Shown: piece after piece, positions 8,559 through 40,108 of the stretch
How the letters are laid out: each line of letters begins with the position of its first letter
Position numbering within the stretch: position 1 is the first letter of the stretch
IMG/VR virus record: IMGVR_UViG_3300048115_000492
Location: 1-40,362 of that record
Reading direction: 5' to 3' (one strand)
Source: a virus
Length of the DNA: 40,362 bases
The notes under the pieces: generated by a model
Databases searched by the model: none
Seen by the model: the letters and a program-made list of their open reading frames with translations, nothing else
Told to the model about the DNA's origin: nothing
Program-made: the position numbers and the translations under genes

Positions 8559-10532
8559 ATGGCAAAGATTATAACAGAAAACTTTAAGATAGAAAATACG
8601 AATGAACTTTTCGATAGTTTGGATGATCAAAACTATTATGTTGTTGCGTCTAGAGCAATTACAAGAACAGAGGCTCAGATAACACCAAGCATTCAGAATA
8701 CTCAAGTATCTAAAAGAGATTTTTTGCGTAAGGTTATATTTGGTAGAAAACTAAGTACAGATAACGCAAGATATATGTTTGTCGAAAACCCTTGGGTTAA
8801 GGGTACTATTTACGACCAATTTGACGACACTCAAGATATCGAAACTTTAAACATGATTGTGACTATTCAAGAAGAAGGTAAAGATTCTTACTTAGTGTAC
8901 AAGTGTTTAGACAACAATAATGGCACACAGTCTCAAGAGATACCTGGTGTTGTCGATCCAACAAACTATCAGAGAACGAAAACTCAAGATGGGTATACTT
9001 GGCAATTCATGTTCAGAGTTTTACCCGCAGAGGTAGCTGATTTTAAGACTGCTGACAACTTACCACTACCAGTTATTGAGGGCGGGTATGGTGATAAAGA
9101 TGTAAAGAGAGAAGCGAAAGAAAATATATCAAATATTATTATAGAAGATACAATAGCGAGTCAGTTTAATCAGTATTTGTTTGGTGAGGCTACTAATATC
9201 AGTAACACTTCTGATGTTATCGTGGTTGACCCAGATACTTCGTCTTTGGGCGAATTTAGAAATATTACTGTAAGAGTGACAGCAAAAACTGGTAGACTTC
9301 TATACTCCGCCCCAGACGCATACAAAAATATGTATCTGAAACATGGTACAACTGGTAAACTGTATGATGTCGTTGCGTCTACATCTTCACCACAGATTAA
9401 TCAGATAACACTTAGAATTAAAAGTACCGATTTGTTTCTTGCACAACAAGTCTGTCAACTATTGATTAAGGTCAATGTAAGTTCTAGTTCACTTGTTGGC
9501 GAAAGGGCAAAGGCTTATCTAGAATTGGATGAATTTGGTACAGCTAAAAAAGTTTCATTCGAAACAAGAGGCGATGGTTACAAATCTGCAAGCGCACAAG
9601 TGGTGTACCCACCCCTACTGAAAAATTCAGCATCTGTTCTTAATAATCCAACACTGCTTCGTGCTATTGTTTCACCAAAAGGTGGTCATGGTTCAGACCC
9701 AATATCAGAAATGGCAATGAGTAAACTTGCCATAACTTCTACAATTGTTGGTACTAGTTTGTTTACTCCAGATGTTAACTTTTATTCGACTTTAGGTCTT
9801 GTTAAAAATCCAACATTTACCGATGCTAGTGGTGCTAGTGTAACGCCAGATGAATTCGATAACAGAACTATCCTAACAGTGTCTGGTGATCACATTGACA
9901 ATAGTGGAGATGAAATCACAGCAGATTCTCCATCACAGACTATACATAAACTTCTTCAGGGTGGCGGTGGAGTCGATAGTTATGTCGAGCAGTTTATAAA
10001 GACAATAAGTGTTCAAGAAATGGTTGATGGTGTGTCTTACACTATTGTAGACATGGGTACAGAGAACAGCCCCGCACAAATGGAGCAAAACGATTTCACT
10101 GCAATAGGTGCTTCAGGTGATAACATTGGTGTTGGTACTGTGTTTACAAGTACTAATACTGCAAGCATTTCGTCAATAAAAGACGGTAAGGTTTCTTTTG
10201 TTACTGATAGAGTTGATGTCACTTCGTCTACTTATGATTACAGTTTAGACATAGTAACCGCTAAAATACATGAAATTACTTCTGACGATAATAACACATA
10301 TATTCATCTGGTAGACTACGATGGAGATTTTGAGCATAAATTCCAAAAGGGTATTTTCTATATTAAACAAACTGAGTCAGCTACAGTCAGTATAAATAAT
10401 AAAACAACTAACACTATTTTGTATGGTCAATATGACGCATACTCGGGCGATCTATTACACTTTATAGATTTTACTCCTATCAATAGAAGCCCGACACGAA
10501 ACGAAAATATAAAGTTCACGTTTGATTTTTAA
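8559..10532 (+). CDS. 8: Baseplate wedge subunit gp8
   Basis: The N-terminal third is typical of phage gp8: VSKRDFLRKVIFGRKL, then VENPWVKGTIYDQFDD, then YLVYKCLDNNNG, then DGYTWQFMFRV (residues about 50-155). In T4, gp8 is a 334-residue dimer that joins gp7, gp10 and gp53 in the wedge. This one has 657 residues, in line with the enlarged forms of marine relatives. Residues about 488-533 hold a copy of the module that recurs through the window (DGVSYTIVDMG, then FTAIGASGDNIGVGTVFTST), so even a core wedge protein has accepted it. The start ATG at 8559 follows a GGAAACG sequence after an 18-base gap. The motif TATAAATA occurs in its 3' end (10391). Confidence 0.85.
   Translation: MAKIITENFKIENTNELFDSLDDQNYYVVASRAITRTEAQITPSIQNTQVSKRDFLRKVIFGRKLSTDNARYMFVENPWVKGTIYDQFDDTQDIETLNMIVTIQEEGKDSYLVYKCLDNNNGTQSQEIPGVVDPTNYQRTKTQDGYTWQFMFRVLPAEVADFKTADNLPLPVIEGGYGDKDVKREAKENISNIIIEDTIASQFNQYLFGEATNISNTSDVIVVDPDTSSLGEFRNITVRVTAKTGRLLYSAPDAYKNMYLKHGTTGKLYDVVASTSSPQINQITLRIKSTDLFLAQQVCQLLIKVNVSSSSLVGERAKAYLELDEFGTAKKVSFETRGDGYKSASAQVVYPPLLKNSASVLNNPTLLRAIVSPKGGHGSDPISEMAMSKLAITSTIVGTSLFTPDVNFYSTLGLVKNPTFTDASGASVTPDEFDNRTILTVSGDHIDNSGDEITADSPSQTIHKLLQGGGGVDSYVEQFIKTISVQEMVDGVSYTIVDMGTENSPAQMEQNDFTAIGASGDNIGVGTVFTSTNTASISSIKDGKVSFVTDRVDVTSSTYDYSLDIVTAKIHEITSDDNNTYIHLVDYDGDFEHKFQKGIFYIKQTESATVSINNKTTNTILYGQYDAYSGDLLHFIDFTPINRSPTRNENIKFTFDF
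10020..10157 (+). repeat. Recurrent module in gp8 (coding)
   Basis: MVDGVSYTIVDMG, then DFTAIGASGDNIGVGTVFTS. This is the copy closest to the form I recall from other marine phages (DFTAIGAS..N.VGT.FTA). Confidence 0.75.
10391..10398 (+). promoter_or_regulatory. Possible late promoter motif inside the end of gp8
   Basis: An exact TATAAATA lies about 150 bases before the ATG of the DUF4815-type gene. It is inside coding sequence (codons for S-I-N-N) and does not share the longer ACTATAAATATA string, so it may be chance in AT-rich DNA. Confidence 0.25.
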
Positions 10533-10549: not shown

Positions 10550-13500
10550 ATGGGTATCAACAAAGACTTAAATGTAGATCCGTACTACGATGATTTTGAT
10601 GAAGACAAGCAGTTTAATCGTGTATTGTTTAAACCATCTAGGGCGGTCCAGGCACGAGAATTAACTCAGCTTCAAACTATTCTGCAAAAGCAGGTAGAGA
10701 GATTTGGGTCTAATGTATATAAGGAAGGTACTATTATTAGTGGTATCAACCTTACATCTAGAAGCGATCTTAACTTTGTTAAGTTAGAAGATCAGGTTGG
10801 GTTTGATGATCCATCTCTTTTCAACGAAATTACTGACGCAGAAGGGGCGACAAAAAGATATAAGTTGGTTGGTAAGAGTAATGGTCTAGAAGCGGAAATT
10901 ATCGCTGGCTTAAATGGATTTGAAACTTCAGCGCCCAATCTAAAAACATTCTTTATCAACTACTTAAAAAGCGATTTCATCGGAGATACTACCAGTGAAG
11001 TTAAAACATTTGCTCGTGGAGAGTCTTTAGAGATAAGAGATTGGAATGATAACCCTGTGACTATTGGTGGTACAGCTACATCAGTTACGACTATTGGTGG
11101 TGGTACACAAGGTAGCGATCATGTGGGTAAATCTTTTGGTATTTCTTGTGAAGAAGGTGTTATCTATCAAAAAGGTCATTTCATTTTCGTTGACAAGCAA
11201 TTCATTATTGTTACACGATATAGTAACACCCCAGGTCAGTCTCCAACCGATCCAACTGTAATTACTCCAGTATCTGTCGGGTTTACAATTGAAGAAAATC
11301 TTGTAGACTCAAATCAAGATTCAAGTTTACTTGATAATGCCGCAGGCTTTAATAATTATAATGCACCAGGCGCAGATAGACTGCAACTAGTACCTAAACT
11401 TGTTTCTTATGAGACAGCATCGGAGCCGGAAGAGTTCTTTGCATTAATAAGATATACAGATGGTAATGCTACCAGAATTCGTGACTTTACAGAATTTAGT
11501 ACTTTAGGTGATGAGTTAGCAAGAAGAACATACGAAGAGTCTGGTAACTATGTGGTTAATGGATTAGATGCTTACTTAGATAAAGTTGATACTGATGAAG
11601 ATGGTATTGATGATGAAGTACAGGTTAAAATAGAGCCAGGTAAGGCGTATGTATATGGTAGAGAAGTTACCAACGTATCTAATGTCATATTACCAGTAGA
11701 CCCAATAGCAGAAACGCAAACTAAAAATAATCAAAAGACTGGTGTCAATTACGATCAATATTTTGAAGTTAATATGGAAGATGATGGTACTTCTACGACA
11801 ATACCGTGGGAAATCGGAATCAGTCAAGGCATTAATGCGGGTAATTATCACAGATATAACTTGCTAGGTGGTGTTGGGGGTACAGTACATATAGGCACCT
11901 GTAATGTTCTTAATATAGAGCCACCAAGTCAGGGTAGTACTCTAGATGGTTCTGCTGGTGCAGAAAAGGCTAAAGTTTATGTATTCAATCTCGCAAAATT
12001 TGCAGGTCAAGAAAACACAGCCCCAACCTTTATTGCTAAACACTCTAATACTTTTGATCAAGATTTGCAAGGTGGTAGTGTAGTCAAAACAGCGGTCAGT
12101 GAACTATTTAATTCCGATCAGGCTTGTATGATATTTGATAGTGGTAAAGATGGTCTTACTAGTGTTTCAGATATTAATCTAACTCGAAGAAAAAGTCGCC
12201 GAATACAATTGGGTACAGAAGATGCTTTAACATCATCACAGAAATCTGCATACTTACCTGCAGAATCTAGTGGTCAACCTGTAGTATCTGATAATGCATT
12301 TGCGATAACAACAGGCGCTACTCCCACTATCCACAGAGTTACCGCTATAGAGTTAACCAATAGAGTTAACGGTCAAGGGTATTTTGATGCACTAGTCACG
12401 TTTGGTACAGTACCAGACGGTGCTACAGTTGATATATTTTATGATATGGGTGTGGTAGATTCTGGTCATGATACATTGACTGAAAAAACTGGATTTATTA
12501 AACCACAGTTTAATAGCACTACTAATCGTGTTCAGTTAGGCGTACCTAACGTAGTTGAAGTTATTAGTGTTTCTATGGTTGATGGTCAGGGGGATCTAAC
12601 AGATGTTACTTCTAGATTTAGACTTGTTAATAATCAGAAAGATGGCGTATATGGATTATCTTATCTAAGACTTATAACTGGTCAGAAACAACCAGAAAAC
12701 TCTACGTTACTAGTTAAAATGAAATACTTAGAAAGAAGCAATACTGGCGGATTCTTAACGCAGAATAGTTACCCAGCCTCTATTAGGAATCGTATAGGCA
12801 AACATACAGCAAAAAATCTATACACTTACGATCTGTTGACATCTTTTGATTTGCGACCCTACACTGCCCCTGCAATTGACCCTAAAACTACTTCTTCTAG
12901 TGCGCTGAGTTATACACCAACAGTCAATAACTTGGTAGAACAAGCGTCTAATGTCACAGGAGTTACTGCTTTTGCAAATAATTCGGTAATAAACTCTACA
13001 CAACAGTACAAACTATCAAGAATAGACACTGTGGTGTTAGATGAATATGGCAACACATTGATAGTTAAGGGTGGAGAAAGTGAGAATCCAAGTCCACCAA
13101 GACTTATCAATCAGTATGGTCTTGCAAATGTTATCATACCGGGTGGGGCATATGAGATAACTGGAGAGAACCGTATAGAGATACAAGAGACCTCTAACAA
13201 AAACTATACTATGCGAGACATTGAAGAGTTAGAAGGTAAGCTAGACAGACTAACAGATATGGTTACTATGTCTATGGCTGAACAAGAAACTTCCAATCTC
13301 ATTATAAGAGGCGCTGATGGCGTTGATAGATTTAAGAATGGTATTCTTGCAGACACATTTAATGACTTAACTGGTGCAGAGTTTGTCGACCCTGAGTTCA
13401 ATGCGGCAGTCGATAAGTCTAAGGGCGTTGCAATGCCAGCGATTAAAGAGTTCCCTGTAGACTTAAAAATAGACCCAGATAGTATGAATGGAGTTTCTGA

Positions 13501-16500
13501 TACATTCGAAGACTTGACTTCGCTTTCTATCAAGACAGAAAAGAGTGTTGTGGTTGCTCAACCATATGCAACTGGGGTTAGAAACTGTGTATCTAACTAC
13601 TATGATTTTCAGGGCAAGGCGCATATCTACCCGAAATATACATATCATCGTGATGTGCTACTCAACCCTAAAATGAAAATTACCACAGAAATAACTTCAC
13701 AAGTTTTAGAGTTGGTTAAAAGAGTTCAAAAATTTGTTCCAGTAAATGTGGGTAAAAATAATTCTGCATTACATAGTGCATATGTTAATGCACTAACTAA
13801 ACAGAGAGGAACATATAAGGTTGGGTACAGATCACCTTTCGTCAAACAGGCGGCAGTGCAAATACTTAATGCCGCAAACAATGGTGAAAAGTATGACACG
13901 GCTAAAGATTTGGGTGGTTTTTTACAAGACAATACTGTTAGACCATATGTAAGAAGACATCTGATTAGAATTTCCGCTACTGGGTTAAGACCAAATACAA
14001 AACATTACTTCTTCTTTGGTGGTAAGAATGTAGACCCTCATGTAAGACAGTTTAGATACAGTTGGTTGAGATATTATCGCAGATATAGAAGAAGAGGTCG
14101 AGGTAGAGTCGGCTATAGATACGCATGGCACCCTAGATATTTGCCTTGGAGAAACTGGGCTGATTATTACTATGGTAGAAGAAGAGGTAGAAGAACATAC
14201 TACTATTCATATAGCAGTCAAAATGTATTCTCTGATTCTAGAGGTAGTCTGTTTGCTTATTTCTATGTACCTGCAGGTCAATTCTTAGTTGGTCAAAACA
14301 AACTAGAAATGTCTGATGTTTCAGATTACAGTCGTATTGGTAAAGATGGAACTTCTTATGCAAGTCAAACTCAAAGAGCGTATTGCAAACTCACTAACTC
14401 AGAGATAAGTAGTACCACTAGAGGTGTAGATGTAGATAGCGATACTTCAGTAGTGAAAAGAGAGTTTCAGGTTAAAAGACGAGACCCTATCGCACAGACA
14501 TTTAAATTGAGAGCATCTGGTACTGGTAATGCTAACTTTGGTTATCTGAGTGACATTAGTGTTTACTTTAAACAAAAGAGCGCAACTCAGGGTATAACTT
14601 TAGAAGTAAGAGAAGTAGAAGAAGGTGTACCAACACAAAAAGTATTACCTGGCGCAACTGCATACTTAGAGTCTGATGATATCAATGTTCATATTTTTGG
14701 TCAAACTGCATCAACTTTTGAATTTGAACACCCGATTAAACTAAAAGCAGATTTTGATTACTGCTTTGTTCTATTGCCCGATGGTGGTTCACCAGAGTAT
14801 TTGGTATTTACTGCAAAAGCAGGAAAGTTCAGTGTATCAAAAGGTGGAACATTTATTCAAGAAAGAGTTACTAATGATTGGGGTGACGGTGTTTTATACG
14901 CACCAACTAATGATAGTACTTGGAAGCCATATAGTGATGAAGACATGAAGTTCACTATCAATAGATATAACTTCAACCAAACTGGTACTATTGATCTCAT
15001 ACCTAATGATGTAGAATTTCTCACAATTAGAGATAATAAGAAGGACCCTGCGAATCAGGCGGGCACTTCTGCTTTCCTAGAGTTTGAGGAAGACGAGACA
15101 GTTTATGTTGAAACCAGTGCTTCGTTTAGTGGTTCTATAGGTAATAGGTCTGATGATGATCAAGAATCACCAGAAAAACTTGTTGTCAATTTATCTAGTT
15201 TGGGTAGTATTGCTGTCGATGTTGGTGATTACTTAATAGTAAAAGAAGTTCTTGCCGATGCTGACACAACACCAGATAAAATAGTTGGTCAAGTAGAAGC
15301 TATTGATGACGAAACAATTAGTCAAGATCAATTTAAAGTATTCACATTAGATACGCCTTGGTATGAACTTGATCCGGGAGAATCTTCGGAAGTTAGTGTA
15401 ACATTGGCTGTTACTGGTAAAGTTTCGTATTACGATCCAGAAAATCCAGAAGAAATACACTTGGATGAAAGTTCTGCTAGATATGGTAACTATTTTGATA
15501 ATTCAAGTGATCAAACATTTGGAGAGTTTCAGATAGGTCAACTTTACACGATAAGATCACTTGGTACGATTGATGGTGGAGTTGAGAATGGTGTTGTTCA
15601 GTCTTGGAAAGATGTCTCTGGTGATAGTTCATTCGTACCTGCTGTTGGTAAAACATTTATTGCGGCGGTCGCTGATTCTACAACTAATAGCAGTGCAGAT
15701 GGAACAGCAAGACCAAATAATCAAAGATTGATTGGTTTAGCTTCTGGTGCTGAAGCAACCATTACTAGATGTAACAGTCAAGGTATATCTTATTTCCAAC
15801 CAAGAGTACTGGTAGATAATACACCTAAAACTTCTCATAAAGTTGAGTTGTTTAAACTATCTGGTGATCAAAATGCGCCGTACAATTTAGATAAGCCTAT
15901 TGCAGAAAGCAGTGATGTTTATGTTTCTAATAATCCAAGAGTTATTGTTAGTAAGAGTAAGCAAATCGATAATCTTCCGGCACCACAGGGTAATCAAGAC
16001 ACTCCAACTATTAGTGAAGACTTCAGACTCAGAGTTACTCTGAATAACAATGAGTTTGATGCTGTTACGCCGACACTGGATGATGATTTGAGTAACTTGA
16101 GTGTTTACGAATATCAAATCAATGACTCGAAGAATGCACCTGCGTCTAGCTATATCTCTAAAGAAGTTATTCTGAATCCAGATATACCTGCCGAGGGGCT
16201 AAAAGTAATTATTGATGCATATAGACCACCGGGTACGCATATAGATGTGTATGCAAGATTTATCAATGCTAATAACTCTGATGAAAAAACTGACTGGGAA
16301 GAACTTGTAAACAAAGATCGTCAAGTATATTCTGCGTTGAATAATCAAGAAGATTATCGTGAGTTTGAATATAACTATACAGAACCTGATACTGAAACTC
16401 TTTATACTAGTTTCCAGATAAAGCTATCGTTTAGACATAGTACCTCTGCTGAATTGACAGACCCTGCATTTAGTGGTGTAGTTGTTTCGAAAAGTATATT

Positions 16501-16540
16501 CCCACATATTCGTGATTATCGAGCGGTGGCACTGACATGA
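10550..16540 (+). CDS. DUF4815-type giant virion structural protein with Arg/Tyr-rich insertion
   Basis: A 1996-residue protein. The start has the DUF4815 pattern: FKPSRAVQARELTQLQTIL, then ERFGSNVYKEGTIISG (residues about 27-66). This family sits after gp8 in T4-like marine phages and is taken to be a baseplate-periphery or fibre protein; its exact role is not known. The C-terminal half has a fibre-type beta domain (GLRPNTKHYFFFGGKNV ... SRGSLFAYFYVPAGQF), into which a 59-residue basic aromatic segment is set (residues 1166-1224). Another shared module lies at about residues 1658-1707 (IGQLYTIRSLG ... VGKTFIAAV). The start ATG follows AAGGGAAAGAG. The stop TGA overlaps the next ATG as ATGA. 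Confidence 0.75.
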   Translation: MGINKDLNVDPYYDDFDEDKQFNRVLFKPSRAVQARELTQLQTILQKQVERFGSNVYKEGTIISGINLTSRSDLNFVKLEDQVGFDDPSLFNEITDAEGATKRYKLVGKSNGLEAEIIAGLNGFETSAPNLKTFFINYLKSDFIGDTTSEVKTFARGESLEIRDWNDNPVTIGGTATSVTTIGGGTQGSDHVGKSFGISCEEGVIYQKGHFIFVDKQFIIVTRYSNTPGQSPTDPTVITPVSVGFTIEENLVDSNQDSSLLDNAAGFNNYNAPGADRLQLVPKLVSYETASEPEEFFALIRYTDGNATRIRDFTEFSTLGDELARRTYEESGNYVVNGLDAYLDKVDTDEDGIDDEVQVKIEPGKAYVYGREVTNVSNVILPVDPIAETQTKNNQKTGVNYDQYFEVNMEDDGTSTTIPWEIGISQGINAGNYHRYNLLGGVGGTVHIGTCNVLNIEPPSQGSTLDGSAGAEKAKVYVFNLAKFAGQENTAPTFIAKHSNTFDQDLQGGSVVKTAVSELFNSDQACMIFDSGKDGLTSVSDINLTRRKSRRIQLGTEDALTSSQKSAYLPAESSGQPVVSDNAFAITTGATPTIHRVTAIELTNRVNGQGYFDALVTFGTVPDGATVDIFYDMGVVDSGHDTLTEKTGFIKPQFNSTTNRVQLGVPNVVEVISVSMVDGQGDLTDVTSRFRLVNNQKDGVYGLSYLRLITGQKQPENSTLLVKMKYLERSNTGGFLTQNSYPASIRNRIGKHTAKNLYTYDLLTSFDLRPYTAPAIDPKTTSSSALSYTPTVNNLVEQASNVTGVTAFANNSVINSTQQYKLSRIDTVVLDEYGNTLIVKGGESENPSPPRLINQYGLANVIIPGGAYEITGENRIEIQETSNKNYTMRDIEELEGKLDRLTDMVTMSMAEQETSNLIIRGADGVDRFKNGILADTFNDLTGAEFVDPEFNAAVDKSKGVAMPAIKEFPVDLKIDPDSMNGVSDTFEDLTSLSIKTEKSVVVAQPYATGVRNCVSNYYDFQGKAHIYPKYTYHRDVLLNPKMKITTEITSQVLELVKRVQKFVPVNVGKNNSALHSAYVNALTKQRGTYKVGYRSPFVKQAAVQILNAANNGEKYDTAKDLGGFLQDNTVRPYVRRHLIRISATGLRPNTKHYFFFGGKNVDPHVRQFRYSWLRYYRRYRRRGRGRVGYRYAWHPRYLPWRNWADYYYGRRRGRRTYYYSYSSQNVFSDSRGSLFAYFYVPAGQFLVGQNKLEMSDVSDYSRIGKDGTSYASQTQRAYCKLTNSEISSTTRGVDVDSDTSVVKREFQVKRRDPIAQTFKLRASGTGNANFGYLSDISVYFKQKSATQGITLEVREVEEGVPTQKVLPGATAYLESDDINVHIFGQTASTFEFEHPIKLKADFDYCFVLLPDGGSPEYLVFTAKAGKFSVSKGGTFIQERVTNDWGDGVLYAPTNDSTWKPYSDEDMKFTINRYNFNQTGTIDLIPNDVEFLTIRDNKKDPANQAGTSAFLEFEEDETVYVETSASFSGSIGNRSDDDQESPEKLVVNLSSLGSIAVDVGDYLIVKEVLADADTTPDKIVGQVEAIDDETISQDQFKVFTLDTPWYELDPGESSEVSVTLAVTGKVSYYDPENPEEIHLDESSARYGNYFDNSSDQTFGEFQIGQLYTIRSLGTIDGGVENGVVQSWKDVSGDSSFVPAVGKTFIAAVADSTTNSSADGTARPNNQRLIGLASGAEATITRCNSQGISYFQPRVLVDNTPKTSHKVELFKLSGDQNAPYNLDKPIAESSDVYVSNNPRVIVSKSKQIDNLPAPQGNQDTPTISEDFRLRVTLNNNEFDAVTPTLDDDLSNLSVYEYQINDSKNAPASSYISKEVILNPDIPAEGLKVIIDAYRPPGTHIDVYARFINANNSDEKTDWEELVNKDRQVYSALNNQEDYREFEYNYTEPDTETLYTSFQIKLSFRHSTSAELTDPAFSGVVVSKSIFPHIRDYRAVALT
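14045..14221 (+). other. Arg/Tyr/Trp-rich 59-residue insertion in the DUF4815-type protein
   Basis: By my count 18 of the 59 residues are Arg, 14 Tyr and 4 Trp, with no Lys and one Asp. Characteristic pieces are YYRRYRRRGRGR and YYYGRRRGRRTYYY. Both flanks belong to one ordinary fibre-type beta domain in the same frame, so this is an insertion rather than a frameshift. The DNA has the direct repeat agaagaagaggt near both ends, which suggests growth by local duplication. Function is unknown; binding to acidic polymer or glycan is only a guess. Confidence 0.75.
15521..15670 (+). repeat. Recurrent module in the DUF4815-type protein (coding)
   Basis: FQIGQLYTIRSLGTIDGG, then SWKDVSGDSSFVPAVGKTF: the first half is clear, and the middle is longer than in other copies. 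Confidence 0.55.
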
Positions 16541-16725
16541 TAAATGAAACTTTTGTGCGATCTGAAAGCGGTAGCGGTGTAGTTAACGCCGATGTCGTTT
16601 CGTATCAAAAAGCTAGGGCTAGAAAGAAACAAGATAAATATATCAAGGGGCTAGAGCAGAGAATAGAAAAATTAGAATCTGCTATGCTTCGACTAGAAAA
16701 CACTGTTAACGAGATAACGAAATGA
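16537..16725 (+). CDS. Small coiled-coil protein, unknown function
   Basis: A 62-residue protein with a basic middle (YQKARARKKQDKY) and a C-terminal heptad stretch (GLEQRIEKLESAMLRLENTV, about residues 39-58) that should form a short parallel coiled coil, probably dimeric or trimeric. It overlaps the gene before it and the gene after it by the same ATGA arrangement, so its translation is likely coupled to both. Coupling between a giant virion protein and a trimeric fibre suggests a virion adaptor or a fibre-assembly helper, but nothing in the sequence proves that. Similar short coiled-coil genes occur at this place in related phages as far as I recall. Confidence 0.7.
   Translation: MINETFVRSESGSGVVNADVVSYQKARARKKQDKYIKGLEQRIEKLESAMLRLENTVNEITK
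16633..16640 (+). promoter_or_regulatory. Weak late promoter-like motif inside the coiled-coil gene
   Basis: GATAAATA lies about 80 bases before the collar-fibre ATG. It matches seven of eight bases of the T4 late consensus. It is in coding sequence and could well be chance. Confidence 0.15.
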
Positions 16726-29900: not shown

Positions 29901-31020
29901 AGCAGGTGGTAGAACTGACGATGAACCACAGGTAAAATTTGATGCGGGTGATAGTAGCTATATTGACTATGATAGAAATACTTTCCCATCCATAGAGTAT
30001 TGTCACTTAGCTACTGCTTTCGACTCAAGAGATAGAATAAAACTTGGAGAAATAGATTATAGTTATGGCCCTCGTTTAAGTGTTGATCCAAGACTTGATG
30101 GAGCAGGTGGTGGAGTAGAGAATAAACTAGAGGGTGCAGACCCCGGTATTATCTCTGCCGTTAAGGGTGAGGTTGCTACAGTTAACTTTCCATTCGAGAC
30201 TATTGGTGATGATCCAGACCCAAATATTAAAAGAATCATTTTTGCTGAAGGCGAGCAGGGCCCAGAAGACAATTCTATAATACCTGGCGTATCTGAAATA
30301 GGCATTGACTTTGCAGGTAGTGGACATAAGTATCAGAGTCAGACAATATATCCACCCGACAATGCCGCTGACACAAGACCGTATATACAAGTCGATGCAA
30401 GTGCCTTTGATGTTTTGAATGGTCTTATCACAAGTTTAAATAAAGTTATTCAGACTAAGATGCTCGTGTTGACAGACGATTGGCAAGCTGTATCTTTAGA
30501 CGAAAACGGAGACGAGATATTTCAAAATAAATCATTTAGAGTGACAAAGGCTGTTCCGTTTGACGCTCAACCACTATATCCAGTATTCGCATTGAGTGAT
30601 AACTGTAGAATTAACGGTGTAGTTATCGAAGAGATATCTGAGCAAAACATAATTAAGACACATACACCGACATTTGTAACAGACTCTACCACTTGGAATA
30701 CTTCTATTTCTTTCCCAGTTCAACCGGGAACAAGTAATACAAACAATCCGTCAGCTTTTAATGGAGAAAGGGATCTTTCTGCGTGTAGATATGACGAAAG
30801 TCTTATGAATCCACTAAGACCAGGGAATGTTCTATATTCATACTATGTTGCAGAAAACGAAACTGTGAGCATTAATTTAGATAACATATTTGCTAGAGAC
30901 AGAAAGGGTATCGAGAGAGGCTCCCTAAATAATAAAGCAATATATATTACTGCATCTAAATTAACCAGTACTGATCCAACAGGTAATGTACAGATTTCTC
31001 TAACTAGCAGGGAGCAATAA
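26917..31020 (+). CDS. Large virion structural protein, paralogue of the preceding gene
   Basis: A 1367-residue protein. Its shared blocks with the upstream gene are SLLGIPRSE ... FSDVATYG near the N-terminus, SKRSFRYQPGRASGFTFG, EFSWYGAIGA ... AYIPVENDEARWV, and YKYGSSVYIDGGDEGT. The Cys-Arg-Asp repeats of its neighbour are absent; in that place is a helical stretch (GRYLYNKFLVIDAQFAKENF). Residues about 739-828 hold a module also found in the gp7-like protein (GEFSCQSRKMRVGERFSVTG ... TTAGTVDGLTFT). No catalytic motif was seen. The start is three bases after the previous stop, and the TAA overlaps the next ATG (TAATG). It is probably a baseplate or fibre component; the T4 counterpart is unknown. 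Confidence 0.65.
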   Translation: MAKQIKIGHDQKPAPVTKQFIQLIDIDGTPLFDDAGNPLVTEENAALTTLTLSENALSVHVNNNPELGDSGGKAIPVVERFKETSEVSSSLLGIPRSEEQLSLFSDVATYGLDVENWDASQIFKDHRNYPEQWYRKEHPIHGRRSNARFYEGSDEQALYLKAFPSQYTYPEGTKEQRRSTPSTNFIKYMNFIALGRYLYNKFLVIDAQFAKENFISETDATIVQGGVAEESIRDFEFNINDATLIFANSSSWFDVKYGQVDLQDSFDAIERWTSFYDKIAAGTDQYPQMPQDLIDAEAGAEQIALVGYKGFAEYGLIRAFVTSTDTRPGGLSNVTYYGILQSKRSFRYQPGRASGFTFGARMVAGDPNSTAQIAEWGCSNDTDEYMFQLKGSEFNIVRRSTVRMPNELLERQGLDSTAQKSTKVTQYGIGNNSRLWETVISRSDFNGDNLLGNGPSGYILSFEDVTMYKVEFSWYGAIGAKFYAYIPVENDEARWVLLHTFVIENGLGEPILENPDFKFKYLIYTNDTKDIREPMYLYKYGSSVYIDGGDEGTIRLSSKSTTGSRPFTDRTPILGILPKEELSNTVGESKPNYKKSYPNVISVTSDRNCRIDFEEIKGTPMGVHFNYSPCIHMNGRHPKTRTVIAKYDVGTAGNTLNRITLLQPNERNQILLNGQNKFDLVTESFLVDLQDGSSLVNIASNSVAKTFDTLQVGDCLYFGEDLTNYKIKKFINQLPLQSVQVTGTSGEFSCQSRKMRVGERFSVTGTLAGSATATIAEHTTASSTLEVSEIQGNPGITESDSVTSFKLVELNGNDLTTTAGTVDGLTFTTIDVTEYSSENKTTVVLEENYVHDSNFVPSLTGAQANLRYVYNQDELYSHVLADGVFGTYVGADGDIFKRRNDGNEEDDYKLQIGVAEDSRKADGSIFRVDGSNTDESKYFEAKLIGYHTVVASTRPIYADKFRIHFLNPTGTNKDSYSNFSEFSVGITPYYPLASGAGGRTDDEPQVKFDAGDSSYIDYDRNTFPSIEYCHLATAFDSRDRIKLGEIDYSYGPRLSVDPRLDGAGGGVENKLEGADPGIISAVKGEVATVNFPFETIGDDPDPNIKRIIFAEGEQGPEDNSIIPGVSEIGIDFAGSGHKYQSQTIYPPDNAADTRPYIQVDASAFDVLNGLITSLNKVIQTKMLVLTDDWQAVSLDENGDEIFQNKSFRVTKAVPFDAQPLYPVFALSDNCRINGVVIEEISEQNIIKTHTPTFVTDSTTWNTSISFPVQPGTSNTNNPSAFNGERDLSACRYDESLMNPLRPGNVLYSYYVAENETVSINLDNIFARDRKGIERGSLNNKAIYITASKLTSTDPTGNVQISLTSREQ
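29131..29400 (+). repeat. SC-VGD module, 1367-residue protein copy (coding)
   Basis: SGEFSCQSRKMRVGERFSVT, then GTLAGS ... FKLVELNGNDLTTTAGTVDG: counterpart of the gp7 unit at 3921. Confidence 0.6.
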
Positions 31021-34000
31021 TGGCTATAATCAGGGGACTAAATGTATCTAAGGCTCTTATCGATATAGATGATAAAAAAGCGTCTCTAGCCAATCTAGGC
31101 CTAAGAATTGATGATCTCGATCTTCTTAGAAATTTAGTAAGAGATGCTGATCTAAACATTTTTGATTTCCATCAAATAGCAGGTCTTGTCGATAATCAAC
31201 TTAGATTGTTCTCTTCTCAACAAGTTTGTGCTAACACAGCAGACTCTGATGTTGAAAATATGAATGAGGTTGATTCAAAGCAGAGATATAATCTTGCTGT
31301 TGATGATAGACTCATTGCAGGCGCAATTAAGTACAACTATGTAGACTTTGTTACACCAAATCTAGCACCAATAGTAGTCACTCAAATTAACGGCACCACA
31401 ATTAGTGGTAGTAATTTGGATACTGTCGAATATAATGGGAAAACTTATACATTATCAGCAGGCGATAAGATTAGAATAACTGACACTGGTAGTAGTGTGA
31501 CTAGTGGGGACTATGAAATAAATAGCGTTTCTTCTAGCCAAATTGTCTTAACCTCTTCTGCTTCATCTGGCGCCGTTACCGACTTCACAAATATAGTAGT
31601 GTCTTTTATAATAGAATGGCCTGTCAGAAGCGCAGATATTTCAACATCCAGAGTATCGTCTTGGTCGCCTATAGGTCCCGAAAATGCTCCAGACTCTTAC
31701 ATAACTTATGGTGGAGAGTTGGTTGTTGATGGTGAATATCTAGCATTAACTAAACTTGGTGTGACTTCTCAGCCGGTTGAAAAGCAGTTTAGAGCAGAAG
31801 TTCCAACACATACAATTAAACTTAATATCAATGGAAGTGATGTACAGTTACCTGTTATAAAGGGTATACCACTAGAATTTATTTCTTCTGGGGCAAATTA
31901 TGCTTATATTAGACTGGGTAGATCAGCCAACACACCTGCAATTACTGATAATGAGGGGGTTATACCGGCAACATTCAAAGTTTCAAACCTAAGTATACCA
32001 AGTGCAACACCGCTAGTTTATGACAGAAATGTGTCTAGCACAACCACGCAAACAGTTTTTTCCTACGGTCTTAATACAACCAATAAGTATAAAGCAGAAG
32101 TATATTACCCACCAAACAATATAGGGTTCTTGTCTGTATATCGATTTGGCGTAAAAGATTTTCCCAATACCAAAATGGAAAATTTGAAAGAATTAGAGTT
32201 GCTTTATAATCAATTTAAATACATACCTAATCTAAAGTCTCTAACACCCTCGTTGGAAAAACTTAAAATTAGTTATAACCCTCTTCATTCGGCTGTAAAC
32301 TATTTGGAAGATTTAGATTTAGGTCATCTCGATGGTGTATATCAAGTAACTGAGGAATTTGTCGATAATGATTTAAGACAAATTGTGTCACAGAAACAAT
32401 TAGATAATTTACCAATTAGTATTAAAGAAGTAGAGGCAATAAATGCCTTTAGAGGCTCTATTAATCTTAATACTGAGCATTTGCCTAATTGTGTTAAATT
32501 TCAAATATATGCCACAAGTAGTTCTCAAGCTAATAGAATTACATGGCCGTTCGAGAGCCCTAGAGGTGCAGACCCAGGCACAGCAATAGAGTTTAATCCA
32601 TCGACAACTGATGTTTATGAAGTTACAAACAATGTAGCAAGATTCAAATTATCTAATCATCAGCTTTCTACTGGAGATGTAGTTAAGTACGATTTTCATG
32701 CCTATCCATTAGACACTGATGACGACCCAACGGTCGGTGTGGGTGTAGATAATATGGGCCAGGCTCTTGGTGGTCTTACCGGTGGGGAGTTATACGATGT
32801 CGCTAAGATATCGGACAATGAAATTGAGTTAAGAGATCGTAGTTCTGGTGTTGCTCCAACTTCTTCTGCATACACAGCATTAAAGGGTGAACTACATTCT
32901 TTCGTAAAATGGAATACTACTGATAATGATATATTCATAGACACAAATAAGGCACCTGGTTTTGAGGAAATGAAACTTAGCTATGCATCTTATCAGTTTT
33001 TGTCTCGTCATATATGCAATAGCCCTGCATTAGAGATAATTGACTTTGATTCAACTCCAATTAAATCTATAGGTAGAACACCATATGTTACGAGAGGTGG
33101 TGTAGAAGGTGACGCTAATAGACTCAAGTCAAACTCTGATAGAAAAATATATTTTAAAAGTAAAGTGCTAACGAGCATAAAGTTGCGTTACTATCGGGCT
33201 AATCTTAATCTAGACTTTTCTGACAATCCACTTTTGAAATCATTATGGTTAGAGAATTGTAGACCCGATAGATTTTGGGGGGATAGTCAGCGAACAATAA
33301 ACGCTAGTATGCTAAATAATTGCCCTGCATTGACGACTATAAAGTTTAAATATTTGTATCAGAGCCTGACTGGCAGTGAGAGAGTTAGAGCAAATATTGA
33401 TAGTATCTTGCGTAACAAACCTAATCTAACTCTTTATGACGAATACTACAATGCCGGTGTTCATATAAATCTTGATGATAATACGCTTAGTGGAAATGGT
33501 GGTTCTTTGCAAACTTTTAGTTCTTATGCTCATTCCGGTGGCCGAGGGTTTGGTGGGTTCGAATATAATAGTGATTACTTTGCTATCGATGGAAGCAATA
33601 ATAGAACAGGGTTATGCTTCGAAGCCTGTAAAGGGAGTATGACAAATCTGAAAGTAAGATTCCAATATCATAAGCACGTTAGATTGGTTAATGATGATGA
33701 TTTAAGTAATGTCATCAAGGTACCTATTAGTGATATGTCAAATCTAGATCAACTATGGATTTACGAGTGTAATCAATGGGGCAAAGTTCCAAGTCTTTCA
33801 AATTTATCCAAATTGAACAGAATCTGGCTTTATAATGGCAAAAGCCAACGAGCGCCCGCCATTCAATCTTTTGGTGAAAACAATATCTTCTCAATTAGAG
33901 TATTGCCTAACAACAGTCAATATGGTAACGGTACTACTCTTTCTGCTATTAATCAATATGGATATTTTTTACCAAAAGAATATGAAGATATGGGGTGGTC

Positions 34001-35201
34001 ATCAACTGAGAAAGATTCTGATTTAGTTGATTTTGGGTCTGATGTACAGCATGGTTCTACCCCTGCGGTAGGCGATCACTTCAAGTACAATTATCTCGAT
34101 GTCGATAATATAATACCAGGTATGTACTATATGATTCAAGATGTTGGATCAATGACCACAGCACAATGGCAAAATTTAGGTTGGGCCGCTAATACGCCTT
34201 ACGCTGATCCTTATAATAAATTAAGAGGCAGACAAAGCAGTGTATTCACTCATGGTTACGAATTCTGTACAGGGTCTCAACCTAAAAGGGGTGACTTCTT
34301 TAGATGTCCACCAAGTAAGACTGGTTTGAATAGAGCAATTTTAGGTTCATTAACTAACGGCGCTGAATATAGAATACTTAGAAGTGGTTTTACAGGTTCT
34401 GGTAGTTATCAATATGACTTTAGGAATCAGGGTGCATCTAATAATAATGTGGGTACTGTTTTTACAGCAGACACATCTAACGATGCGACAATCAATTCGA
34501 ATACTAATTCGACTTATGGTACATTCAGGGTGGCAGAAAGAACTACTTATTCGGATTTAGGCGATGGTAAGATTTCTCGGGTGTCAACAAGTACCTTTGT
34601 CCAAGGCGTTCAATTTCTTGGATTCAGAGGAAGTTTAGGTGATTTGCAAAATATGAGTCAATTGCAAGATTTAAGAGTTTATAATAACTCTTTTTCTGGA
34701 CAATTCCCTAATCCAATAGCACCAGCTTTGAAAGATTTATACGCTCAGAATAATTATTTTAGTGGTAATGTTCCAGATATGAGTGACTGTCCTATTCTAG
34801 AAGAACTCAAACTAAATAATAATGATATAACGGGGTATGTCTCGCAAAGTTTAAGATTTAATACGAAAGCGACTCTAGTAGATTTGAGTGAAAACAGACT
34901 CCCTGCGTCTGTGGCTGGCGACTTAATAAACGATCTGTGGTTTATGGCTACGCCAAACACACCAAGAAAGGGTATAACTGTTAGACTTAATGGTCAAAAA
35001 GGGTTCGATCCTGGCACTAACGAAGACTACTTAGACAATAATGGATTTGCTACAAGATTATCTGTACAGGCGTTGATAGATATACCTGGCTCTGGTGATG
35101 ATGATAATCTTGATGTAAACGGGCTTCCGCTTCATCCATATCGAAGATACTTGTCCTTAATTGGAGCATTCCAATGGGATATAGAGATAGACGAAACATA
35201 G
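31020..35201 (+). CDS. Leucine-rich-repeat virion protein (putative adhesin)
   Basis: A 1393-residue protein. The start (ALIDIDDKKASLANLGL, then DDLDLLRNL) is of the attachment type seen in marine phage fibres. LRR-like segments occur in several blocks: about residues 376-422 (NLKELELLYNQFKYIPNL, then LEKLKISYNPL), 715-757 (LDFSDNPLLKSLWLENC), 904-943 (NLDQLWIYECNQWGKVPSLS) and 1202-1307 (QLQDLRVYNNSFSGQFPNP, LKDLYAQNNYFSGNVPDMSD, LEELKLNNNDITGYV, LVDLSENRLP). The last block follows the L..L.L..N..G..P form of plant and bacterial LRRs. Inserted modules break the series at residues about 537-610 and 1030-1154. LRRs commonly bind proteins or glycans, so receptor recognition is a fair inference. 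A start overlapping the previous stop implies coupled translation. Confidence 0.7.
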   Translation: MAIIRGLNVSKALIDIDDKKASLANLGLRIDDLDLLRNLVRDADLNIFDFHQIAGLVDNQLRLFSSQQVCANTADSDVENMNEVDSKQRYNLAVDDRLIAGAIKYNYVDFVTPNLAPIVVTQINGTTISGSNLDTVEYNGKTYTLSAGDKIRITDTGSSVTSGDYEINSVSSSQIVLTSSASSGAVTDFTNIVVSFIIEWPVRSADISTSRVSSWSPIGPENAPDSYITYGGELVVDGEYLALTKLGVTSQPVEKQFRAEVPTHTIKLNINGSDVQLPVIKGIPLEFISSGANYAYIRLGRSANTPAITDNEGVIPATFKVSNLSIPSATPLVYDRNVSSTTTQTVFSYGLNTTNKYKAEVYYPPNNIGFLSVYRFGVKDFPNTKMENLKELELLYNQFKYIPNLKSLTPSLEKLKISYNPLHSAVNYLEDLDLGHLDGVYQVTEEFVDNDLRQIVSQKQLDNLPISIKEVEAINAFRGSINLNTEHLPNCVKFQIYATSSSQANRITWPFESPRGADPGTAIEFNPSTTDVYEVTNNVARFKLSNHQLSTGDVVKYDFHAYPLDTDDDPTVGVGVDNMGQALGGLTGGELYDVAKISDNEIELRDRSSGVAPTSSAYTALKGELHSFVKWNTTDNDIFIDTNKAPGFEEMKLSYASYQFLSRHICNSPALEIIDFDSTPIKSIGRTPYVTRGGVEGDANRLKSNSDRKIYFKSKVLTSIKLRYYRANLNLDFSDNPLLKSLWLENCRPDRFWGDSQRTINASMLNNCPALTTIKFKYLYQSLTGSERVRANIDSILRNKPNLTLYDEYYNAGVHINLDDNTLSGNGGSLQTFSSYAHSGGRGFGGFEYNSDYFAIDGSNNRTGLCFEACKGSMTNLKVRFQYHKHVRLVNDDDLSNVIKVPISDMSNLDQLWIYECNQWGKVPSLSNLSKLNRIWLYNGKSQRAPAIQSFGENNIFSIRVLPNNSQYGNGTTLSAINQYGYFLPKEYEDMGWSSTEKDSDLVDFGSDVQHGSTPAVGDHFKYNYLDVDNIIPGMYYMIQDVGSMTTAQWQNLGWAANTPYADPYNKLRGRQSSVFTHGYEFCTGSQPKRGDFFRCPPSKTGLNRAILGSLTNGAEYRILRSGFTGSGSYQYDFRNQGASNNNVGTVFTADTSNDATINSNTNSTYGTFRVAERTTYSDLGDGKISRVSTSTFVQGVQFLGFRGSLGDLQNMSQLQDLRVYNNSFSGQFPNPIAPALKDLYAQNNYFSGNVPDMSDCPILEELKLNNNDITGYVSQSLRFNTKATLVDLSENRLPASVAGDLINDLWFMATPNTPRKGITVRLNGQKGFDPGTNEDYLDNNGFATRLSVQALIDIPGSGDDDNLDVNGLPLHPYRRYLSLIGAFQWDIEIDET
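32145..32285 (+). repeat. LRR block 1 (coding)
   Basis: The segments MENLKELELLYNQFKYIPNL and PSLEKLKISYNPLHS follow the LRR pattern L..L.L..N.....P..L, about 23 residues apart. Confidence 0.65.
32628..32849 (+). repeat. HG-type module in the LRR protein (coding)
   Basis: FKLSNHQLSTGDVVKYDFHA, then LTGGELYDVAKISDNEIELR. It is set between LRR-like blocks and carries an extra loop. Confidence 0.5.
34107..34310 (+). repeat. Recurrent module, LRR-protein copy 1 (coding)
   Basis: IIPGMYYMIQDVGSMTTAQW, then QNLGWAANTP, a long loop, then RGDFFRCP. It lies between LRR blocks. Confidence 0.65.
34347..34481 (+). repeat. Recurrent module, LRR-protein copy 2 (coding)
   Basis: LTNGAEYRILRSGFTGSGSY, then FRNQGASNNNVGTVFTADTS, immediately after copy 1. 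Confidence 0.65.
34623..34940 (+). repeat. LRR block 4, the clearest (coding)
   Basis: Four consecutive units are readable: LQDLRVYNNSFSGQFPNP, LKDLYAQNNYFSGNVPDM, LEELKLNNNDITGYV and LVDLSENRLPASV. They show the L..L.L..N.F.G..P form. Confidence 0.8.
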
Positions 35202-37363: not shown

Positions 37364-40108
37364 TTAGCCACCAGGTGCGGTGTATGTTATAGGCATATAC
37401 TTATCTGTAGTTATAATAGTACCGCCGGCAATTTCAGATATACTATTTTCCGGCAATGTAAATGACAACTTAGAAAATCTCAACTCTTTAGCGATAACAT
37501 TCGGTCTATTAGGTGGAGTTTTCAATCCCTTAGTAGTACTCTCCCAAGGCGGTGCTGTGTTCAATGGTATGATACAATATTCTTTGTTTTCTCCATTCCA
37601 ACCATTTTGGGTGGGCACACCCTGATTATTGATTTCGCCCGCACTTCTTGATACAAACACAACTGTCGACCCCTTAACGAGGGCACCACTTATCGGCGCT
37701 GATAGCGTTACTGTTTTTGTGGAAGTATCAACCGCCGTTACTGTCGTGCCATGCGGGATTACACCATCAAAATAAATAAAATCTGCTAGTGATGCACTAG
37801 CGTTAGGTGTGATATTGTCAACATCAGATACTACAATTGATTGTGCCCCACTCTGATAAGTATTCATTACTTCTTTACCAATTACACCATTACACTCTTG
37901 TATAGTTGATCTATCACTAATACCTCTTGATCTATGTACAACAACAACGCCGTCAGTGGCGTTTATATCTGTTACACTTGATTCTGGATTGTTTTCAATC
38001 GTAATAATAGACTCTAGTGATGCGGGGATACCATAATGGTCTGTGCTTTTAACTCTGAACCCGTATTCATTGATGTCACTATTTGCGCCAGATGCACCTG
38101 TGAAGTTTACTTTGTATATTAAATCATTTTCTGTCACTGTGTTCGCAAAAGAACCAAATGCTTTTGGCGCCCTGTTAATCGTTTGAATTTGATGCTCGAC
38201 ACCTGCACCCGAGTCATTATCGGCATATTTGAAAACACCAACAAGACCTTCATTTTTAATAATTAGCACCTCAAACGCAGTATCTGGAGCAATATTAGTT
38301 AAATCGAAAAATTCGATTGGAAGAGATATGTAATGATAGTCACTATCTCGACTAGTAATTTCAACTTTAAACGCCCAGTAATTGTTCGCACCAGGAGGTT
38401 TTAATACTACGACATCGCCTTTATTCACTCCCCCGATTTTAGATGTAGCTACAGCCTCTTGATGTCTACCAGAACTATTGAGAGATAAAGTGTGTGAGAC
38501 AATCTCATTATTAGCACTGTCAAATAAAGTGCTTTGAGTTACAGATGATGATTTAAGTGATGGAGTGAACTCGTTTCTCAATGTGTTAATGACTTTTAAC
38601 TCAAAATCTGCTTTTTCGTTTGTCGGCCCTGCTCTATTGTCTCTAAAGAATGGATAACTATATCTTTTGCTAGAAAAATCTTGAGTCTGTTGGATTGGAT
38701 AAAATCTTGTATAACCAAACTCTGTATTGTTTGTTTCTTCTGCCTTTTTCACTCCACTAGCAGTGCCACCCTTTGCAACGCTAGGCCAGTAATGCGTATA
38801 TCTTACTCTTCTTCTGGCACCTCTATTTGGTGCAGTAATACCTAGTGATGGAAACTCAATTTCATCGTCTTTTGGCGAGAAAGAAAATATTATCTCATCA
38901 GTACCTGTAGCATCAGTGATATTGAAATCGTCAACAAGCGTTATTTTAAAATTGGTTCTGCTCATCGACTCTACTACAGATGTATAGTTTGACCCAGTGG
39001 CTGGGTCTGTAGTGTTATCGAAGGTGACAGTCATACCTAGCCCGACTCTACTCCAGTCGTGTCCATTACTCTGACAAGTTAAAACTGTTTTTCCATCTAC
39101 AGTTTCGTATGATATAGTTTCGTATGCTCTAAACTCAGGTTGTAATGTCCCTCTTACAAAACGCCAATTGCTTTCTACCGATTCGTTTTCAATTAAGTCT
39201 TCTTCTACAAGAAAACAACCAGTAATTAATATTTTGGCGTTAAAGCCACCATCTTGATATCCAGTGTGCTGAACAGCACCATTTCTATCAGAGAAAGATA
39301 TATCGAGTTTAGATGGATAGAAAAAGTCACCAGTACCGGGCCAGTAGTCTTCTGGGGTTATTATTGCTGGCACCTCTGCATTAAATATTTTTGTATGTAA
39401 CTCAGTTGGTTTCAACTGATTTGCGGCAACTTCATCAATTGCAAACGCATATGATGCCCTAGGTAAAGAAACATTTCTTACAGATGAACTGCTATATGTT
39501 GATGTTCCATCTATACTTGCAGTAAATATGTCGCCAACAGAATATGATCCACCAGATGCACCAGAGAGAGTATCCCATTGAGCGTCACTGTTATTATTAG
39601 TAACAATTTTATATCTTTGACCAGAAATAACATCATCACCATCAATAATAGATCCAATTTGTTGAGAAGAACTGTTTATTCTTTCTGTCGGAATTATCTC
39701 TGTAACAGGGCCGCTTCCACCATTAACAAATGGTGGATCACCAAATACAGTCTTAAATTTATTAAGATAGTCCTGCATTGTGACCTGAGGCTGAATAGGT
39801 TTGCTTGTGATAATTGATGGATCATTAGGATCAGCTATATCTATAAATGGTCGTGTATCTTTAAGATCAGTTAAAGCATAAGGTGGTACACCTGGCTGGG
39901 TGTAGTCGTATGTTTCATCTAGGTCGCTCTGAGAAAATATTCTTAGTGGTTCTATATCAGAAAGAGTAAATCCAGTAGGGTTGCCATCTATATCATTAAC
40001 GCTTGTCAGATCATTAATGACATTGGCGAGTGCCGTGCCTGAATCAGTTAGATCAGCTAACGCCCTATCTGCTCTCAATCCAAATTTTCTATACTTTCTA
40101 GATGACAT
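37364..40108 (-). CDS. Virion structural protein on the opposite strand (putative fibre/baseplate)
   Basis: A 914-residue protein. Its N-terminus (LRADRALADLTDSGTALANV, then FTLSDIEPLRIFSQ) is of the attachment type seen in marine phage fibre proteins and resembles the N-terminus of the LRR protein. Residues about 160-203 hold the recurrent module (ISGQRYKIVTNNNSDAQWDT ... VGDIFTASIDG). A weak HG-type unit follows (SNGHDWSRVGLG ... TNFKITLVDD). The rest is beta-rich (FFYPSKLDISFSDRNG; VRYTHYWPS) with no catalytic motif. The ATG at 40108 is preceded on its strand by AAAGAGAG about seven bases upstream. It runs convergent to the whole plus-strand cluster and shares a strand with the small gene upstream of it. 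Confidence 0.65.
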   Translation of the reverse strand: MSSRKYRKFGLRADRALADLTDSGTALANVINDLTSVNDIDGNPTGFTLSDIEPLRIFSQSDLDETYDYTQPGVPPYALTDLKDTRPFIDIADPNDPSIITSKPIQPQVTMQDYLNKFKTVFGDPPFVNGGSGPVTEIIPTERINSSSQQIGSIIDGDDVISGQRYKIVTNNNSDAQWDTLSGASGGSYSVGDIFTASIDGTSTYSSSSVRNVSLPRASYAFAIDEVAANQLKPTELHTKIFNAEVPAIITPEDYWPGTGDFFYPSKLDISFSDRNGAVQHTGYQDGGFNAKILITGCFLVEEDLIENESVESNWRFVRGTLQPEFRAYETISYETVDGKTVLTCQSNGHDWSRVGLGMTVTFDNTTDPATGSNYTSVVESMSRTNFKITLVDDFNITDATGTDEIIFSFSPKDDEIEFPSLGITAPNRGARRRVRYTHYWPSVAKGGTASGVKKAEETNNTEFGYTRFYPIQQTQDFSSKRYSYPFFRDNRAGPTNEKADFELKVINTLRNEFTPSLKSSSVTQSTLFDSANNEIVSHTLSLNSSGRHQEAVATSKIGGVNKGDVVVLKPPGANNYWAFKVEITSRDSDYHYISLPIEFFDLTNIAPDTAFEVLIIKNEGLVGVFKYADNDSGAGVEHQIQTINRAPKAFGSFANTVTENDLIYKVNFTGASGANSDINEYGFRVKSTDHYGIPASLESIITIENNPESSVTDINATDGVVVVHRSRGISDRSTIQECNGVIGKEVMNTYQSGAQSIVVSDVDNITPNASASLADFIYFDGVIPHGTTVTAVDTSTKTVTLSAPISGALVKGSTVVFVSRSAGEINNQGVPTQNGWNGENKEYCIIPLNTAPPWESTTKGLKTPPNRPNVIAKELRFSKLSFTLPENSISEIAGGTIITTDKYMPITYTAPGG
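39500..39631 (-). repeat. Recurrent module in the minus-strand protein (coding)
   Basis: VISGQRYKIVTNNNSDAQWD, then TLSGASGGSYSVGDIFTAS. Its second half is close to those of the 716-residue protein, the neighbour on the other strand. Confidence 0.65.

Follow-up and report, generated by a model that had tools for sequence, protein, structure and literature searches.

Among the described systems closest to our locus, VrlC is a protein of double-layered baseplates, in which it appears to replace gp7 of T4 (PMC7029224). VrlC presumably makes up the second layer, the pyramids or prongs, in double-layered baseplates of the T4-like type. A second layer that reorients at adsorption has been reported for A511-type homologues, the homologues of A511 Gp106 forming pyramids that are directed upwards at first and swing to the cell wall upon adsorption (PMC11406892), and VriC has been suggested to make prongs, which may face downwards (PMC11721090). 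A511 Gp106 is described as being of the same kind as ORF65 of Staphylococcus phage 812 (phi812), a DUF4815 protein of known structure (PDB 9euf, 9eui and 9euj).

The window analyzed here, the whole 40,362-nucleotide stretch of an IMG/VR virus record, is a T4-like phage region for the baseplate and host recognition. Its genes encode, in order, wedge subunits, a YHYH protein, a wedge protein of phrog_438 (8559-10532), the DUF4815/VrlC baseplate protein of 1996 aa (10550..16540, + strand) and then large fibre-like proteins. The phrog_438 gene adjoins the VrlC gene, whose stop codon is overlapped (ATGA) by a small ORF of 62 aa (16537-16725) with a weak match to phrog_473; the window thus has the VrlC gene order, with a baseplate wedge gene beside and a small ORF downstream. 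The same neighbourhood is shared by the VrlC/VriC proteins of Ackermannviridae, cyanomyophages, phiN3/phiM12 and Cr30, which lie before a small ORF and, in many of these phages, after a baseplate wedge gene, and which contain this domain, with a loop that varies at the corresponding site. The position of the 62-aa ORF is that of the putative chaperone Gp107 in A511. The YHYH-domain protein (PF14240; 7584-8540) lies in the baseplate cluster; for pelagimyophages, a role of such proteins in receptor binding has been proposed.

The VrlC protein of the window matches PF16075 with an E-value of 2e-47 (162 bits, the curated cutoff being 30) and phrog_358 with an E-value of 1e-237 (793 bits), and its structural model matches the phi812 baseplate DUF4815 protein 9euj with a Z-score of 26.1 and an rmsd of 1.4 over 173 residues. 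Like phi812 ORF65, it combines an N-terminal DUF4815 part, an Ig-like region and a CBM-like jelly roll; unlike it, it has 1996 aa instead of 1152, and ORF65 belongs to a phage of a Gram-positive host and does not match in sequence the Arg/aromatic loop described below. The first-pass annotation had spoken of a fibre-type domain, a term that has to be replaced, since phrog_358 and the phi812 fold match identify a VrlC baseplate protein (PMC7029224). The jelly-roll domain follows the Ig-like domain at 14477..14977 (+ strand), as delimited by the AlphaFold2 model and its fold matches; beyond the phi812 protein, the model resembles CBM-like folds such as the lectin-like domain of Cwp84 (Z 13.9) and CBM6 (Z about 6). 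Over 263 residues, which take in the region ahead of the jelly roll, the model of a distant relative, L183, matches 9euf.

Within the Ig-like domain, the window protein carries an Arg/Tyr/Trp-rich hypervariable loop of 60 aa, RQFRYSWLRYYRRYRRRGRGRVGYRYAWHPRYLPWRNWADYYYGRRRGRRTYYYSYSSQN (residues 1166-1225; 14045..14224, + strand), whose net charge is +17 in a protein that otherwise stands at -85. The alignments define the strands that precede it (..RPYVRRHLIRISATGLRPNTKHYFFFGGKNVDPHV; 13931..14044, + strand) and those that follow it (VFSDSRGSLFAYFYVPAGQFLVGQNKLEMSDVSDYSRIGK; 14225..14344, + strand). Translation confirms the 59 in-frame residues reported earlier at 14045-14221, with 18 Arg, 14 Tyr, 4 Trp, no Lys and a single Asp, and their composition is as extreme as had been claimed: 36 residues are Arg, Tyr or Trp, as opposed to 15 in the runner-up 59-aa stretch of any window protein (binomial P about 2e-23 for the excess, taking the window composition as expectation). 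The codon choice of the loop is the gene's own, with AGA dominant, and its GC content is 0.40 as compared to 0.38. In a scan of all ORFs (735,623 aa) for 40-aa stretches with 16 or more Arg, Tyr and Trp residues and at least six of each kind, the only stretches passing were in this loop. This exclusiveness is true of that scan and not of all the loci added later: a second scan of 926,331 aa, which required five Arg without an aromatic minimum, also returned Arg-rich runs in frames of L016 and L054, in the VrlC ORF of L149 and in the upstream loop of L270/L351. Those in L016 and L054 are short frames and probably non-coding.

AlphaFold2 models the strands flanking the loop with a pLDDT of roughly 83-93 (mostly 87-93 before it, dropping towards the loop, and 83-90 after it) and the loop itself mostly with 41-52. 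A low-confidence loop between well-modelled strands agrees with the earlier placement of the segment in a DUF4815 protein, within one of its beta domains. The prediction, a monomer, was made before the relatives bearing the same loop were discovered, from an alignment with no other such member, and the low loop pLDDT may reflect the shallow alignment there rather than demonstrate disorder. The domain of L183 gives a similar pattern, with its strands well modelled and its loop poorly.

The site of the loop is variable throughout the VrlC family. Two conserved flanks, ..GLRPNT.HYFFFdG..V... and ..v.tD.nG.l.avF.iP..tF.vG.., enclose a loop whose 192 distinct versions span 3 to 125 aa, with 10 in the sampled Ackermannviridae, 19 in phiN3, 31 in L001, 47 in L107 and 106-125 in cyanophages. 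L001 and L107 are the nearest relatives outside the clade of the window (45-47% identity), where ordinary loops of 31-47 aa are found. The segment does lie inside the beta domain, but the idea that it interrupts an otherwise ordinary domain needs amending: since relatives carry a shorter ordinary loop at this site, it takes the place of that variable loop and enlarges it, and is not an insertion into an invariant domain. Near the clade of the window, basic loops (+6 to +10) recur in L287, L107, L278, L297 and L295, and L001 and L299 have near-neutral ones. In the VrlC/VriC proteins of Ackermannviridae, cyanomyophages, phiN3/phiM12 and Cr30, the loops measure 10-124 aa and, unlike that of the window, lack a joint enrichment in Arg and aromatic residues. 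The 106-125-aa loops of cyanophages (L021, L022, L023, L025, L186 and related loci) occupy the same site, have motifs of their own (LNVDTxSL), are mostly acidic and possibly form an extra small domain. No second copy of the variable region, as the template repeat of a diversity-generating retroelement would be, was found in the 40-kb window, which is part of the genome.

Searches with the 59-aa loop by itself in viral_contigs, genome_contigs, phages and PDB gave no matches. Once an alignment of the whole domain served as the query, four IMG/VR contigs surfaced that carry the same loop, with 61 aa and identical motifs: 3300048111_000190, 3300017744_000090, 3300017717_000122 and 3300025849_000055 (L267 to L270, respectively). 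Their proteins are 53-55% identical to that of the window overall, 63-68% in the loop and 61-66% in its flanks. The loops share the pattern RQFRYxWxRxYxR..RR........YLP[YW]RNWADxxxGRRRGR...xYxY, in which the start RQFRYxWx (14045..14068, + strand) is invariant save for the x positions in the window, L267 and L270, and the block YLP[YW]RNWADxxxGRRRGR lies at 14138..14191 (+ strand). Compared with the window, dN is below dS in both loop and flanks, a rough estimate over about 60 codons. Loop alignments score 172-220 in frame 0 and at most 101 in the other frames. The segment is therefore not unique to the window, being common to five proteins and paralleled in a distant clade; nor is it a fold core conserved in all relatives, as many of them are without it.

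These comparisons bear on how the loop arose. A frameshift origin was considered and rejected, as the other frames of the loop are unlike the loops of relatives and less conserved. The extreme composition for the region might suggest a sequencing, assembly or frameshift artefact, whose probability we regard as negligible: an identical loop type was assembled in four other contigs from other samples, the other frames have stops or lower conservation, and the codon usage matches the gene. Conservation in the clade, in a conserved frame, thus rules out an assembly error and also makes unlikely a low-complexity expansion through slippage that was neutral or under weak constraint in a tolerant loop. 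The latter would suit a site that accepts 3 to 125 aa and the presence of an AGA-rich repeat; indeed, the repeat agaagaagaggt reported near both ends is there, with copies at 14087 and 14177. The growth by slippage or duplication that had been deduced from it is not supported, however, since resampling the codons of this peptide gives a longest exact repeat of such length, 13 nt, in 9.5% of cases, and a test for duplication within the peptide was not significant (P 0.83). The motifs have also been retained among lineages that are down to 61-66% identity in the flanks, their conservation is frame-specific, and a loop of the same type was gained in parallel elsewhere, so that neutral expansion seems very improbable to us.

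The parallel gain is found in L071, L183 and L187, which have an Arg/Trp-rich loop of 59-60 aa at the same site with a shared motif of its own. This clade is distant, the L071 protein being about 25% identical to that of the window. Its loop resembles that of the window in length, site and Arg/aromatic composition, but it has mainly Trp instead of Tyr, no alignable sequence and a separate origin. Homology between the loops was rejected, as the window loop aligned with those of L071 and L183 no better than with shuffled sequences (P 0.68 and 0.16, respectively). Within this clade, the loop diverges faster than the flanks, with its Trp and Arg positions retained (W.W..RR, W.W, RLF.R and WHP.W). 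A tree of 171 proteins, built by a quick method with the loop columns left out, requires two origins of the trait, and both clades have an SH-aLRT support of 100 (no bootstrap). As the two clades share composition but not alignable sequence, their loops need not do the same job.

The loop probably serves as a functional contact element rather than being a stray insertion. At about even confidence, we propose that it is a cationic-aromatic surface under selection for contacts made by the VrlC pyramid, most likely with the anionic host envelope. The contact with the envelope is inferred from the baseplate reports on VrlC, A511 and VriC, together with the proposal that Tyr/Trp and Lys/Arg residues of the T4 gp37 tip bind LPS (PMC9603124). 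This receptor-binding tip is comparable in how it would work and, here, in composition alone; unlike the loop, it belongs to an unrelated protein, sits at a fibre tip and has far fewer such residues. The adjoining CBM-like jelly roll would also fit such a role at the surface. Both the exposure of the loop, modelled at low confidence, and its role as a contact surface are presumed. As the tail lands, the VrlC pyramids would turn towards the cell and the Arg residues of the loop would form pairs with phosphates or with uronic acids in the outer envelope, its Tyr and Trp residues stacking against sugars or settling into the membrane interface; the outcome would be a secondary, low-specificity adhesion keeping the baseplate in place before contraction.

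The main rival is a partner within the virion, and sequence data leave the two undecided. The loop would then pair with acidic surfaces of baseplate or fibre neighbours, or of another VrlC copy, and stabilise the second baseplate layer or its switch, its composition following that of acidic partners. Because the neighbouring baseplate proteins of the window are strongly acidic, such a partner is electrostatically as plausible as the envelope: every large neighbouring structural protein is acidic (-13 to -151), and so is VrlC without its loop (-85). A conserved motif whose positions are fixed would suit a defined protein partner, and Arg-Tyr contacts are frequent in protein interfaces. The hypervariable length and composition of the site across the family, however, fit external contacts better than an assembly interface, and we consider this internal role possible but somewhat doubtful. 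An RG-rich patch handling DNA or RNA at assembly or ejection appears improbable. GRRRGR, RRRGRGR and the aromatic residues are compatible with phosphate binding, but the loop has no RGG triplet, as an RGG box would need, the loops of the distant clade are Trp-rich with little RG, and VrlC lies by homology in the outer baseplate layer, off the DNA path (phi812 fold match; PMC7029224).

While the VrlC family is already known, the conserved, twice-gained Arg/aromatic loop is new, and a limited search of open-access papers found no description of it. A broader form of the envelope-contact proposal, which we put forward as a rather long shot, is that the hypervariable loop of the VrlC Ig-like domain is an interchangeable contact site of T4-like baseplates that has become a peptide-like cationic-aromatic element in at least two lineages separately, and that grips or disturbs the outer envelope as the pyramids flip down. 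If true, there would be a second adhesion step, or a membrane-perturbing one, distinct from the binding of fibres to their receptor. The loop also offers a way into the question of which cell component the VrlC pyramids of double-layered baseplates contact: most relatives have a short loop close to neutral, and two separate clades a strongly basic-aromatic one, a natural comparison of one domain in the presence and absence of the presumed contact surface.

Upstream in this domain lies another hypervariable stretch (13745..13930, + strand in the window), which is Arg/Tyr-rich in L351, basic in L352 and Trp/Arg/Gly-rich in many other VrlC proteins. Unlike the window, L270/L351 have an additional Arg/Tyr-rich segment there; in the VrlC ORF of L351 (6620-12511), it comprises residues about 1030-1088 (YRVTRLQRYIRLSRRSRYRRRIRRHAYSYAKRLNYLYR), and a frameshift was rejected because the other frames contain stops. 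In L035, L093, L013, L018 and L026, Trp/Arg/Gly-rich tips (e.g., SWWWNRHNGWYGRNGYYNWGWWGG and WGMRWRGWRHHGG) are located just before the Ig-like strand, and several VrlC/VriC proteins of Ackermannviridae, cyanomyophages, phiN3/phiM12 and Cr30 have Trp/Arg-rich tips in this stretch instead of an enriched loop. Such tips may be the usual site of an aromatic-basic surface in VrlC. The charges of the upstream stretch and of the loop are weakly correlated among 250 proteins (rho 0.12, p 0.055).

Elsewhere in the window, a 914-aa ORF on the minus strand (37364-40108) has no match in Pfam or PHROG, and the fibre region encodes a large protein with leucine-rich-repeat matches (PF25019, LRR_4; 31020-35201), which is unusual in a phage tail gene cluster.
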